Shown piece by piece: positions 28,091-34,727 of a stretch of DNA of 34,898 nt (position 1 is the stretch's first letter; each line of letters starts with the position of its first letter). The DNA is from Lachnospiraceae bacterium (GTDB lineage Bacteria; Bacillota; Clostridia; Lachnospirales; Lachnospiraceae). The stretch is taken from positions 1-34,898 of the forward strand of contig JAQWCI010000007.1 of NCBI GenBank assembly GCA_028706005.1. Reading direction: 5' to 3'. The notes under the pieces were generated by a model. The model did no database searches. It was not told the origin of the DNA and saw nothing but the letters and a program-made list of their open reading frames with translations. Both the position numbers and the translations under genes were made by a program.

Positions 28091-29340
28091 ATGAAAAAGT
28101 GCCTGATCATAATTCTGGCCTGCGCTATGCTCCTTTTGGGGTGCGGCGAGACAGAAACAGCAGAGAAAACAAAAATATCGTTTATTCACGGATGGGGTGG
28201 CAGCAGCGAGATCCACGCCAGGATGCGCAAAATATATCAGGAGTTCGAAGAGCTTAATCCTGATATTGATCTCAGTATCACTGAATATGCTGACGCATCC
28301 GTTGCAATGGACAAAGCTGATGATATGTTATCGGTAGGTAAGATGCCGGACATTGTCAACACGAGTGGCTATGCTTCGTACGCAAGAAACGCCACAAAGC
28401 TTGGCTATGCCATGGATCTGAGCGGCTTCTTCGAAGAAAATACCGAAGTGGCAGACAGCCTTTACGAGGATGCAATTGATACGCTGAGAATGGGAAACGG
28501 CAGAATATATACGGTCCCGGATGCTATCGAGGCTCCGGATACTGGTACAATGAGAAGCTCTTTGATGCGGCAGGCGTGACAGAGGTGCCGCTCACCTGGG
28601 ATGAGTTTTTCGCAGATATGACCGCTGTGGATACTTACATGAAAGATGAAGATCTGGGATCGGCCTGCTGCGTTGAGTCCACCCAGCTGTACGAATTCTT
28701 CCTGCTGGCTGATATGTATGGACACTTCAGTGCAAGGGATGAAGCTTCGTTTAATTATGGCAGAACAAGTGGAGACACTTTATTCGCCGTCAGGAATGAC
28801 CTTGACAGACTGCTTGAGGTATCTGACACAGCGGACAACACTGCAGGTGCCAGAGAAACGTTCCTTTCAGGCGGCTCCGCGGTGTATTTTAACGGGATAT
28901 GGGAGAGTGAGCCTATAGACAAGGCAGATATTTCTGAAGATATAAAGTTCGCACCATATCCGTCTTCAGATGGAAAAGGGCTTATTTACTTCTCTGTGTC
29001 TTCAGGCTATGTAATAAAAAAACAGGAAGACTCGAAGAAAGAAGAAGCCGTGCAGAGGTTCCTTAAGTATATGCTCAGCGATGACGTACAGACACAGATC
29101 GCATATGATACTGGACAGATGCCAATTAGCAAAAATGTAGATTTCGATAAGGTCGAAGATTACATACCGACACTTAGCGCGGCTATAAAAGCCGCGAACA
29201 CAGCCGGCAAGAGAATAAGGACACTGTCTTCCGCCTGGAACCAGGAGAAGATAGACATTCTCTACGAATATTATGAGAGCGGGTCTGAGGACGAGAAAGA
29301 TGCTGTGTACGCCGCGGACATGATCAATAAGACATCCTGA
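28091..29340 (+). pseudogene. Second ABC-type SBP lipoprotein, frameshifted near 28531
   Basis: MKKCLIIILACAMLLLGCGE lipobox; frame runs to IYTVPDAIE, then the homologous GSGYWYNEKLFDAAGVTEVPLTWDEFF continues in another frame (single missing base at gag-gctccggatac). Confidence 0.8.
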
Positions 29341-29426
29341 TAGCCCGGAGCATTGGATTGCCGGGGGTACCGCATCTGTGTTATCATTGTGCGCGAACAC
29401 AAAAGCAACAGGAAAGAAAAGACTTT

Positions 29427-31472
29427 ATGACTGATTTCGAGATAAATGCTATTTTTTCGGATTATACATCTGATTATATAAAACCATGGCAGCCTGCCCC
29501 GTTTTCTCAGCTTACAATTCTTCTCAGAACGGCAAAGACTGGAGTGGATCACTGTACGCTTTCCGTCAGAGGTGCACGCGAATATGAGATGATACGCGTG
29601 GCTGAGAACGATAGTTTTGCCTGGCATTCAGCGGTAGTGGAGCTGGATGACAGAAAGATTTCCTGGGTTTTTAATGTTTATACTGACACGGAGCATCTCC
29701 TGTATACAAGACGGGGAATTGAGGGAAAGATCGAAGAGCCATCATGGTGGAATCTTGTCCCCGGTTTTTGCGTACCAAAATGGATGGTCGGCGCTGTGAT
29801 GTACCAGATTTATGTGGACAGGTTCAGCAACGGAGATGAGTCAAACGACGTACAGACAGATGAGTACAATTACATCGGGAATCATTCTGTAAAGGTCGAA
29901 GACTGGAACAGACTGCCGCAGGCTGATGACGTCAGGGAGTTTTATGGCGGCGATATACAGGGAGTAATCAATAAACTTGACTATCTTTCTGATCTCGGCG
30001 TTGATGTTATATATTTGAATCCGCTGTTTGTTTCGCCGTCTAATCACAAGTATGACAGTCAGGACTATGGCCATATTGATCCGCATATCGGGAGAATAGT
30101 TAATGATGGAGGGAAACTTTTATCCCCTGACGATCACGACAACAGCCACGCATCGCGCTATGCTGTGCGCACTACTGATGCCGGGAATCTTACAGCGAGT
30201 GATGAGCTGTTCGCATTGCTTGTAAAGGAGGCCCACAGGCGCGGAATAAAAGTTATTATCGATGGTGTGTTCAACCACTGCGGTTCATTTAACAAATGGC
30301 TGGACAGAGAGCGTATATATGAACAGATTGACGGGGAGCCGAAGGGCGCATATGTAGCAGAGGATTCCCCTTATCATGATTATTTCCAGTTCAAGGGCGG
30401 AAAATGGCCTTATAACGGCACATATGATGCCTGGTGGGGACACGATACCCTGCCAAAGCTTAATTATGAAAATTCACGCGCATTAACTGATTATGTGCTT
30501 GATATTGGCCGTAAATGGGTATCGGCTCCGTTTCACGCTGATGGATGGCGTCTCGATGTGGCATCTGATCTCGGTCATTCTCCTGAGTTCAATCACCATT
30601 TCTGGCAGGAGTTCAGAAAGGCCGTAAAAGAGGCAAATCCTGACGCGGTAATACTGGCTGAGAATTACGGAGATTCTTCTGCCTGGCTTCAGGGCAATGA
30701 ATGGGATACCATTATGAACTATGACGCATTCATGGAGCCTATAACATGGTTCCTTACAGGCATGGAGAAACACAGTGATGATTTCCGCCGGGATCTTCTT
30801 AATAATACAGACCAGTTCTGGAAGAGAATGACCTATTACTGGAACGGTGCGATGAACAGCGCACCGATGTTTATAAGTATGAATGAACTGTCGAATCATG
30901 ATCATTCGCGGTTCCTTACAAGAACGAATCATAAGGTAGGCAGAATCGAGACTCTTGGCCCCCTGGCAGCAGAGGAGAATGTGGATATGGCTGTGTTCCG
31001 CGAGGCGATAGTCATGCAGATGACATGGCCGGGAGCTCCGACTGTCTATTATGGCGATGAAGCGGGACTCTGCGGTTTCACAGATCCTGACAACAGAAGG
31101 ACTTATCCATGGGGCAGGGAAAATGAGGATCTCATAAAATTCCATAAAGAGATGATCAGAATTCATAAGAAAGACAGGTGCCTTATCGCAGGCTCTGTCC
31201 GCCTCATGGAATCAAAGCCCGGTTGCATTTGCTATGCGAGATTTGATGAGATGGAAACTGTGCTGGTGATCATCAATAATAATGCTTTTGATGTGATTTC
31301 ACGGACAGAGCCTGTATTTGCAGGCACTGCCGTAAATTGTGACATGACGAGAATAATGATGTCAGACAGAACAGGGTACAATACTGACCCGGTGATAATA
31401 AAAGTTGAGAATGGGAAAATGGAAGTTAAAGTTTCGTCTGAATCAGCTACGATAATCAGGTGTTACCACTGA
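29427..31472 (+). CDS. GH13 alpha-glycosidase (neopullulanase/cyclomaltodextrinase-like)
   Basis: MYQIYVDRFSNGD, DGVFNHCG, DGWRLDVASDLGH (nucleophile), ILAENYGD (acid/base), NELSNHDHSRF; CBM34-like N-terminal domain; no signal peptide. Confidence 0.92.
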   Translation: MTDFEINAIFSDYTSDYIKPWQPAPFSQLTILLRTAKTGVDHCTLSVRGAREYEMIRVAENDSFAWHSAVVELDDRKISWVFNVYTDTEHLLYTRRGIEGKIEEPSWWNLVPGFCVPKWMVGAVMYQIYVDRFSNGDESNDVQTDEYNYIGNHSVKVEDWNRLPQADDVREFYGGDIQGVINKLDYLSDLGVDVIYLNPLFVSPSNHKYDSQDYGHIDPHIGRIVNDGGKLLSPDDHDNSHASRYAVRTTDAGNLTASDELFALLVKEAHRRGIKVIIDGVFNHCGSFNKWLDRERIYEQIDGEPKGAYVAEDSPYHDYFQFKGGKWPYNGTYDAWWGHDTLPKLNYENSRALTDYVLDIGRKWVSAPFHADGWRLDVASDLGHSPEFNHHFWQEFRKAVKEANPDAVILAENYGDSSAWLQGNEWDTIMNYDAFMEPITWFLTGMEKHSDDFRRDLLNNTDQFWKRMTYYWNGAMNSAPMFISMNELSNHDHSRFLTRTNHKVGRIETLGPLAAEENVDMAVFREAIVMQMTWPGAPTVYYGDEAGLCGFTDPDNRRTYPWGRENEDLIKFHKEMIRIHKKDRCLIAGSVRLMESKPGCICYARFDEMETVLVIINNNAFDVISRTEPVFAGTAVNCDMTRIMMSDRTGYNTDPVIIKVENGKMEVKVSSESATIIRCYH

Positions 31473-31482
31473 GATCCGGGTA

Positions 31483-32691
31483 TTACAAAAGCTCAGTTCC
31501 GACATCATATGTTTTGCCATTTACGGCGTCACGAAGCCATGCGGCCATAGTGGCGCCTTTTAACGTCCGCATGTAGAAGTAACGAAGCCGCACGGCTGTA
31601 TGGATAGTGCCGAGCTGTGCTTTTGTGTAGAGCGGGTTCTTCCAGTCGTTTATGAAGAAGTGAAAATCGGAACCGAGATCACGGAGCTCTGATACCATCT
31701 GGTGAAGCTGCTTATAATATTTTCTTCTGACAGCGTTGTCCGTCTTATATATTTCTTTGGTCATATCATTGTAGAAGGCGCTGAGCAGATAATCATGGGT
31801 AGAGCTCGCGTAAAGACATCTGAACCGGCCGGGATTTGCATACAGAAGAGCTCTGTACCAGTCGAGAGTGATGTTGTCTCCGGAGAGCGGCTGCCACACT
31901 GAATTGTCACTCTTCCATACGTCGCGGGCAATCGACTGCCATTTATCGTTTATAAGCTGGGCACTGTCGGAAAACAAAGTAATATCATTGCAGTAAGGAT
32001 ACCATTCGTCAGCAATTCTTCCTGCGACAGCGGGAACTGCAAACGCCCCCGCTGAATCGCCGGCAATAAGGAGTTTTGACGGTGATGGGAAGAAATTTCT
32101 GGCAATATCCATAGCACATTCGAAGTTACGTCTTCCGTGGAAATGCAGTATCTGATCAGAACCGTCGAGAGCCTTGTATGGAAAATCAGAATTGCCGACA
32201 TGAAAGTCTCCGGTAGTGTATGTTATGATGACAAAATTCCAGTCATAAAACGGGTTTATGAGCTGGTTCGTGTCGGTAATCCCGACATTTATGTTCATGA
32301 TCTGGGTGAATGGACGCAGATTGTTCCAGTAGTAATTTGGCTCGCCGGAAGCGACTGCCGCGCCTGTAACAGGCCGTGCCGCAGTATACTCGTTCCAGGC
32401 AACTCCGCCGCCGGACATAAAGATGCACAGATTGTCAGTGCAGGCTTTTTTGATGTAGATGTGATATTCGGTGCCATCACCCGAAATTCCATAGGGAACC
32501 GGAATGCGATACCAGACGTGCGCCGTGGGTTCGCCGACAAGGAGGGGTGCTTCCTCGCGCCGTTCAATGAAACCGCCGACCGTCTCTTCGACAAAACTAC
32601 CCGCATTGGCGGCGAGCTTCTTAGTCTTCTCTATTGCTTTCTCAGCCTTCTCTTTTCTTATGAGCTTCTTGTTTTCCATATTATTTACCAT
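31483..32691 (-). CDS. Pectinacetylesterase/NOTUM-like alpha/beta hydrolase
   Basis: LCIFMSGGGVAWNEYTA (oxyanion region), LLIAGDSAGAFAVPAVA (GxSxG); no signal peptide, charged helical N-terminus. Confidence 0.8.
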   Translation of the reverse strand: MVNNMENKKLIRKEKAEKAIEKTKKLAANAGSFVEETVGGFIERREEAPLLVGEPTAHVWYRIPVPYGISGDGTEYHIYIKKACTDNLCIFMSGGGVAWNEYTAARPVTGAAVASGEPNYYWNNLRPFTQIMNINVGITDTNQLINPFYDWNFVIITYTTGDFHVGNSDFPYKALDGSDQILHFHGRRNFECAMDIARNFFPSPSKLLIAGDSAGAFAVPAVAGRIADEWYPYCNDITLFSDSAQLINDKWQSIARDVWKSDNSVWQPLSGDNITLDWYRALLYANPGRFRCLYASSTHDYLLSAFYNDMTKEIYKTDNAVRRKYYKQLHQMVSELRDLGSDFHFFINDWKNPLYTKAQLGTIHTAVRLRYFYMRTLKGATMAAWLRDAVNGKTYDVGTELL

Positions 32692-33351
32692 TTAAAGGTT
32701 AAACCATTTGCCGGTTGCGCTTTTCAGTTCCCTTGAACGGAACAGTGCCATTGCCGCACCGCCTATAAGGAGGAGAGCCATGGAAATCACCGCTGGTGCG
32801 GGAAATTTATTAAGACCGCTCAGCGTTCCGATGAGCTGCAATAATGACAGCATTACATTTGTAAAGAGATAAATGATATAAACCTCAAGAGAGATATGAA
32901 GTATTTTGGCAATTATGACCGTGATTATTGCCATCCCCACGAATGTCGAAGGAATCATCCATTCAACAGACCATCCGCGGAACCCCGACCCGATGTCTAT
33001 TATCAGACATATGACCATCGCGATATACAGCTCGATCGTCACCATTTTAATTACGTTATTGCGAAAATACAGGGCTATCCACAGATCAGCCCAGCAGATT
33101 ACAGCATATATCTCTGTGAGGGAGACCCAGGGAAGTGCGCGATCCGTCAGAAAATCCAGTGTTATCATGGCTATTTCGAGAACAATCAAAACAAATGTCA
33201 CTATCCGGAAGAATGACACCTGGCTGACAGCCGGCTTTTTAATAACCGGGAAGGCCGGTGATTCAGGTTCGCCTTCAAGAAGACCCTGACACAGAGGGCA
33301 GCACCTTTTGTTCCCACGGATTTTCACCTTACATCTGGGGCAGTATTGCAT
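32692..33351 (-). CDS. Zinc-ribbon plus multi-TM protein (DUF6320-like)
   Basis: MQYCPRCKVKIRGNKRCCPLCQG (CxxC...CxxC) followed by about five to six hydrophobic segments. Confidence 0.75.
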   Translation of the reverse strand: MQYCPRCKVKIRGNKRCCPLCQGLLEGEPESPAFPVIKKPAVSQVSFFRIVTFVLIVLEIAMITLDFLTDRALPWVSLTEIYAVICWADLWIALYFRNNVIKMVTIELYIAMVICLIIDIGSGFRGWSVEWMIPSTFVGMAIITVIIAKILHISLEVYIIYLFTNVMLSLLQLIGTLSGLNKFPAPAVISMALLLIGGAAMALFRSRELKSATGKWFNL

Positions 33352-34644
33352 TTATCTGGCCTCCTTTATATCAGCTGTATGGTTGTTATAGTCATTGGTT
33401 GCTATTTCAACGTCAATTCCCATCTCGGTAAGGCGTCTGTAGAAGCGAAGCATTACAGGGTGCGAGGTGAATGTGCCGGCCGAACCGAAAACAAGCTTGT
33501 CCCCGAAGGTCGCCATTGTGACCTGCATGCCTGGTGCGGACATGAAAGCCGCAAAGTGATCAATGTAGGGCGTTATTTCGTCGGGCATTGTTATGCGCTC
33601 CATGTTAGACATTGAGGCCGTGACACCTTTCCGCTGAAGATAAATAAAATATGTGAGGCCCGGCTCCTTTAGCACGAGTGGAATGAATTTGATAGCCATG
33701 TTGTGAACAAGGGCTGAGAACGAATTCATGGTATTGCTTATGTTCTCATGCTGCAATTGTTCCGAAAACTGATCCTTTACGATTTTGATAATGCTTTGCA
33801 GATCGCCGTCGTAGTCTTTGGCATAGTAGATTATTGTAATGACACCAAAAAAGTTCCTGGTAGTATCCGACGGAAAGAATTGCCGCAGATTAACAGGAAC
33901 AGATATAACGACAGGCTTTGTGCTGTCGTGAACGGACATGCCGTCGATAACTGCGGCAATGTAAAGGGATGTCGCGAAAACTCCGACAGTCGTGCCATAT
34001 TTGTGAGCTGCGTCAACAAACTGTTTTGCGGAAAGAACGGCCTCCACTACGTGACTCAGTTGATTCATGTCGCGTTCGCCGTGAAGCTGGTATGCATTGA
34101 CGGATTTGAGCTGCCCTATCTTAAAATCCTTCTCATGCTGATAGTAGCGCGAGAATGCATCGATAGTCTTCTCGTCTCTTGATGAAAAATCCTGCGCCGC
34201 ACATGGGTCAAGATGATGAACAGCTGACAGGTAATTTGTCAGTAGTCTTCTGAGAAAAATTATGGCGCCGGTCCCGTCTGCCAGGACATGGAACATCTCG
34301 AGATTGATGCGGCGTTTATAATAGGTGACACGATAAAGAAGATTGCGTCTTCCGGGAATGTATATGGGAAACATGACAGGCTCGGCATCTTCTTCAACCT
34401 TTGCACCGAACGGCAGTGCGTCAAGGTAATACCAGAAGAGCCCTTTCCGAAGGCATGAGTTGAGATACGGGAATTCCTTAAGTGTCTCATCCAGTGCGGT
34501 CTGCAGGATGGCAGGATCCACATCTTCATTGAGCTCGCAGGCAATCCTGAAAACACGCGTATCCGCACCATGCGCGGAGCATGGAATTATAATTGCCGCA
34601 TTGTCAAGTTTGTACCACTTATTGCCTTTTCTGCCAGTATTCAA
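33352..34644 (-). CDS. Condensation-/alcohol acetyltransferase-like acyltransferase
   Basis: MFHVLADGTGAIIFLRRLLTNYL contains HxxxDG; overall layout resembles BAHD/condensation/PapA-like acyltransferases; TTG start with GAGAGG upstream. Confidence 0.78.
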   Translation of the reverse strand: MNTGRKGNKWYKLDNAAIIIPCSAHGADTRVFRIACELNEDVDPAILQTALDETLKEFPYLNSCLRKGLFWYYLDALPFGAKVEEDAEPVMFPIYIPGRRNLLYRVTYYKRRINLEMFHVLADGTGAIIFLRRLLTNYLSAVHHLDPCAAQDFSSRDEKTIDAFSRYYQHEKDFKIGQLKSVNAYQLHGERDMNQLSHVVEAVLSAKQFVDAAHKYGTTVGVFATSLYIAAVIDGMSVHDSTKPVVISVPVNLRQFFPSDTTRNFFGVITIIYYAKDYDGDLQSIIKIVKDQFSEQLQHENISNTMNSFSALVHNMAIKFIPLVLKEPGLTYFIYLQRKGVTASMSNMERITMPDEITPYIDHFAAFMSAPGMQVTMATFGDKLVFGSAGTFTSHPVMLRFYRRLTEMGIDVEIATNDYNNHTADIKEAR

Positions 34645-34727
34645 ATTATGGCCTCTCAGAATGAGTTATATATTATGCAAATAAACTGTAGCACTAGTAT
34701 ATCACAGACAAACCGCTGTATCGATGC

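Follow-up and report, generated by a model that had tools for sequence, protein, structure and literature searches.

The window, a 34,898-nucleotide stretch that is a whole contig of a Lachnospiraceae bacterium, carries three minus-strand genes, A, B, and C, which abut exactly in this order and end 254 bases short of the contig end on the side of gene A (Table 1). The TAA stop codon of A at 33354-33352 is followed directly by the ATG of B at 33351, and the TAA of B at 32694-32692 is followed directly by the ATG of C at 32691, so that the frames and junctions lie at the positions given in the original prediction. Gene A starts with TTG at 34644, with GAGAGG ahead of the start. Gene B has a strong AGGAGG ribosome site 8 nt upstream of its start, inside the end of A. 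No obvious ribosome site precedes gene C, whose frame has a second ATG at 32679. On the plus strand, a GH13-type alpha-glucosidase/neopullulanase-like gene (29358-31472) converges with gene C, with ~10 bases between the stops, and a binding lipoprotein of the sugar-transporter type (28091-29340) is split into two overlapping frames of 162 and 254 aa. A near-identical contig (L006) has a single frame of 416 aa at the lipoprotein site, and the frameshift in the window is either real or an assembly error.

Table 1. Features of the A-B-C locus and its flank (positions in the window)
Feature	Positions	Strand	Basis
Gene A, 430 aa, TTG start, predicted free-standing acyltransferase, PapA5/BAHD/condensation fold	33352-34644	-	AlphaFold2 model, phmmer, profiles of relatives
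HVLADG, A residues 119-124, predicted catalytic HxxxDG	34273-34290	-	Alignment conservation
Gene B, 219 aa, DUF6320: zinc ribbon plus six-helix membrane domain	32692-33351	-	PF19845, AlphaFold2 model
Zinc ribbon of B, C4-x2-C7 ... C18-x2-C21	33289-33342	-	Cysteines invariant in alignment A2
DUF6320 membrane domain of B, portion retained in A-B fusions	32695-33252	-	Pfam envelope, fusion joints
Gene C, 402 aa, PAE/NOTUM-like alpha/beta-hydrolase, predicted cytosolic	31483-32691	-	PF03283, NOTUM profile match, N terminus
Conserved N-terminal segment of C, ~residues 20-43, AxxxGxFVExxIGxxIE, no hydrophobic stretch	32562-32634	-	Module-linked C proteins
Predicted nucleophile S213 of C (GDSAG)	32053-32055	-	Invariant in 16 homologs
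Predicted catalytic D300 of C	31792-31794	-	Invariant in 16 homologs
Predicted catalytic H364 of C	31600-31602	-	Identical in all homologs with sequence there; one row masked
Promoter-like site before gene A, TCGATA-17-TATACT with TG	34696-34724	-	Consensus match only

Gene A is predicted to encode a free-standing acyltransferase, probably one that acylates an alcohol. Because searching PDB sequences with a profile of A returned no matches, its fold was predicted instead. The AlphaFold2 model (pLDDT 77, pTM 0.82) has a two-lobed CAT-like fold, and its best PDB fold match in Foldseek is PapA5 (1q9j, E = 2.1e-16), followed by condensation domains and BAHD enzymes such as TRI101 and HCT, with TM-scores of ~0.4 to 0.67. 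The protein also carries the HxxxD(G) motif of this superfamily, and H119, D123, and G124 are identical in all 29 aligned A homologs. By phmmer, window A matches the VibH-like amide synthase 1l5a with an E value of 1.6e-4. Relatives of A match PapA_C and AATase (PF07247), and the AATase cut-off is exceeded by 3 of 16 A proteins plus one fusion (L084), window A not being among these matches. Gene A resembles the PapA5/BAHD/condensation enzymes in fold and motif but differs from them in sequence, all family matches of window A being subthreshold, with 17 bits against PapA_C, below the Pfam cut-off; in addition, some of its homologs are fusions with a membrane domain.

Gene B clearly belongs to DUF6320 (PF19845), covering the whole profile length with 132.6 bits against a cut-off of 29.9. 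Its AlphaFold2 model (pLDDT 80, pTM only 0.61) shows six long helices in addition to the ribbon and a helix at the C terminus, and a PDB fold search with this model gave insignificant matches only, none at E ≤ 0.001. Loop charges suggest that both termini are cytosolic. No function of DUF6320 is recorded in the domain libraries searched, and no paper mentioning it was found in the literature searched. B probably holds A at the membrane, and it could instead transport something.

Gene C passes the family cut-off of the NOTUM/plant pectinacetylesterases (PF03283) with 39.4 bits against 26.6, aligned to positions 26 to 192 of 355, and matches NOTUM in a profile search with an E value of 0.0035. 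The Ser-Asp-His triad of the family is conserved, the Asp and His being assigned from conservation and position, not structure. In contrast to NOTUM and the plant enzymes, C has no signal peptide, and its gene is linked to those for an acyltransferase and a membrane protein. An N-terminal hydrophobic stretch is missing from all 19 module-linked C frames and present in 4 of 5 unlinked C paralogs, indicating that the absence of a signal peptide is a trait of the whole linked C clade. Since the module-linked frames lack a hydrophobic N terminus, C was not classified as an extracellular pectin or Wnt esterase. The same bacterial family has a sister group of PAE/NOTUM-like proteins, mostly with an N-terminal hydrophobic stretch, encoded at loci with no A or B nearby (L185-L189). 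The protein assignments of the original prediction hold for all three genes: an acyltransferase with HVLADG at residues 119 to 124, which proved to have invariant H, D, and G and a predicted PapA5-type fold; a CxxC-CxxC zinc-ribbon protein with multiple transmembrane segments, now with C4, C7, C18, and C21 and six predicted helices; and a GxSxG pectinacetylesterase-like hydrolase (GDSAG), whose missing secretion signal had been taken to argue against a genuine extracellular pectin esterase, a lack that all 19 linked frames share.

DUF6320 was found in 109 of 200 genera of Lachnospiraceae, the family of the window, and, in a phylum-wide sample of 300 genomes, in 14. At every DUF6320 locus examined (~133, a few duplicates among them), an A homolog is located directly upstream of, or fused to, DUF6320. 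Conversely, the strong A homologs in the same 200 genera almost all adjoin DUF6320. The unit occurs in Lachnospiraceae, Bacilli, Acholeplasmatales, Paenibacillus, and Anaerotruncus, so the linkage reaches far beyond close relatives of the window, and HMM searches placed neither A nor the hydrolase in a characterized pathway; on both counts the idea of a joint system stands. Four fetched A genes lack B yet adjoin an Abhydrolase_3 gene, indicating that B is not strictly required. More distant A paralogs at two other loci (L181, 5408-6700; L182, 5130-6410) are solitary, with neither DUF6320 nor an esterase adjacent. Among transporters, regulators, and diacylglycerol kinase, no further conserved neighbors were found beyond common ABC ATPases. 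A plasmid of Anaerotruncus colihominis (NZ_CP094683.1; L191, 3785-7585) carries a complete esterase-A-B unit, which is directly followed by a diacylglycerol kinase family gene, an isolated case. An anti-phage defense system was considered and rejected, A, B, and C matching no PADLOC model, and a scan of viral contigs for A-B fusion proteins found no relatives.

The coupling of A and B is conserved and exceeds chance. Where A and B are separate genes (104 loci), B starts at a distance between -26 and +31 from the A stop in about nine-tenths of cases, and the zero spacing in the window, falling within this range, is thus ordinary, unlike the coupling itself. In 24 tree rows, A and B form a single protein of ~600 to 660 residues, in which the end of A joins B at model position 29 to 34, immediately behind the ribbon. 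The ribbon is absent from all 24 true A-B fusions and kept in 109 of the 111 separate B frames of the tree set, one separate B without a ribbon being that of locus L046. Four changes are required on the tree, each on a supported branch, implying about four origins of the fusion with loss of the ribbon each time; since there are only four such events, the pattern falls short of statistical proof (sign test, P = 0.125). One apparent ribbon-keeping fusion (L144) was not counted, because its A part ends prematurely (model position 378) in a way that looks like a frameshift. Read plainly, the ribbon would do noncovalently what the fusion does covalently, namely, hold A on B. The deletion that joined the genes could also have removed the ribbon passively.

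The third member of the unit varies in family. Within 2.6 kb of the unit, the esterase is an Abhydrolase_3 protein in 89 tree rows, a PAE-like C in 18, and a type-B carboxylesterase in 1, so that three alpha/beta-hydrolase families (Abhydrolase_3, PAE, and COesterase) occupy the esterase slot. No recognized esterase lies within this distance in 29 of 133 loci, in some cases because the contig or the fetched stretch ends. The Abhydrolase_3 gene may be upstream of, downstream of, or divergent from A-B, and 83 of the 88 copies in the flanks are at most 400 bp away from A-B. On the A tree, the loci with C, including the window, form one group with weak support (43), and together with the carboxylesterase locus they form a well-supported set of 19. 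The esterase is thus an exchangeable part, with the PAE-like C as the version of the window's clade and Abhydrolase_3 in most lineages. In L105 (4004-5800) and L114 (6293-8263), the Abhydrolase_3 partner is fused to an apparently unrelated downstream gene, for a SpoU methylase in one and a carbon-nitrogen hydrolase in the other.

Short operons can persist by descent, and A, B, and C might be co-inherited neighbors with no joint function. Against this stand the A-B fusions, the changes of esterase position, and the replacement of esterase families, with adjacency kept throughout, which make simple co-inheritance highly improbable. That acyltransferase, esterase, and membrane protein make up a joint unit, as first proposed for this locus, is supported by the linkage across ~133 loci, the 24 fusions, and the retained esterase slot.

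Our main reading, to which we assign a probability of about 0.55, is that the unit encodes a membrane-tethered pair of ester-forming and ester-cleaving enzymes at the cytosolic face, with the ribbon docking A. A would use a CoA or carrier-protein thioester as acyl donor and acylate the hydroxyl of a hydrophobic alcohol, probably one dissolved in the membrane. The six-helix B would keep A at the membrane, its N-terminal zinc ribbon serving as a noncovalent dock, and B may also present or bring the substrate to A. C, or another esterase elsewhere, would take the acyl group off or pass it to another acceptor, and A and the esterase would together run a cycle of acylation and deacylation, or of proofreading, on the cytosolic side of the membrane. 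In this model, membrane sidedness, the docking role of the ribbon, and reversibility, as well as acylation and deacylation by the unit as such, are what we infer from the genes.

The closest mycobacterial system is the sulfolipid module PapA1/Chp1/Sap, which also combines a PapA-fold acyltransferase, an alpha/beta-hydrolase, and a small integral membrane protein. The catalytic domain of Chp1 is cytosolic, Sap is thought to help SL-I translocation, and Chp2, which is related to Chp1, works by transesterification (PMC4183827). The unit may accordingly be read as an envelope-lipid assembly line of the same kind, in which a glycolipid or polyol is acylated by A, further acyl chains are added by the hydrolase working as a transacylase, and B aids flipping or export of the product; the three shared part types and PapA5 as the top fold match of A speak for such a line. 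However, the membrane and hydrolase families differ here, A-B fusions occur, and no MmpL transporter is alongside; nor is any conserved transporter, polyketide synthase, glycosyltransferase, or acyl-CoA ligase found beside the unit. Neither B nor C has a listed match to the Sap or Chp families, and a hydrolase slot shared by three esterase families suggests generic ester cleavage, so we regard an assembly line as unlikely. Membership in the mycobacterial PapA/Sap/Chp module itself was rejected, B being DUF6320 and C being PAE, with no Sap or PE-PPE match listed.

A second comparison is with yeast, where Atf2 acetylates sterols promiscuously and Say1 deacetylates those that it recognizes (PMC4076087); in this pair, an HSL-like alpha/beta-hydrolase counteracts an AATase-family acetyltransferase that acts on a hydrophobic alcohol. 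By analogy, the unit might detoxify exogenous hydrophobic alcohols such as sterols, bile acids, plant phenolics, or drugs, with the esterase rescuing wrongly acylated molecules. The AATase matches among relatives of A are consistent with this, as are the MerR or TetR gene near isolated loci and the match of the relatives' Abhydrolase_3 partner to Say1_Mug180, which ranks second to the better PF07859 (Abhydrolase_3) match and is not shared by the window's C. The yeast system, however, is eukaryotic and has no DUF6320 partner, whereas the window's C is PAE-like, and regulators of the MerR/TetR type are rare and not conserved. The presence of the unit in Acholeplasmatales and Paenibacillus makes a gut-specific substrate unlikely to be general, and detoxification appears quite improbable overall. 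Bile-acid acylation was also considered as a substrate lead and set aside, with nothing connecting it to the A, B, or C genes.

Returning to the tethered ester-forming and ester-cleaving pair, a bolder version can be put forward tentatively, as a possibility that we do not favor: an undescribed bacterial ester cycle might be built on a membrane protein without a known fold, with the ribbon as an exchangeable plug that docks a soluble acyltransferase and is dropped upon fusion, and this cycle might make and proofread an acylated membrane lipid in about half of the family's genera.

The A-B-esterase unit is real, widespread, and conserved, and no description of the set was found in the literature searched. 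Many gut bacteria belong to the family of the window, in more than half of whose sampled genera DUF6320 occurs with its partners. Taking A, B, and C together gives a domain of unknown function a place in a testable claim, that of an acylated alcohol and recruitment through a ribbon. Should the unit yield a membrane lipid, or an acylated sterol of host or dietary origin, it would represent a common and overlooked chemistry of gut bacteria.
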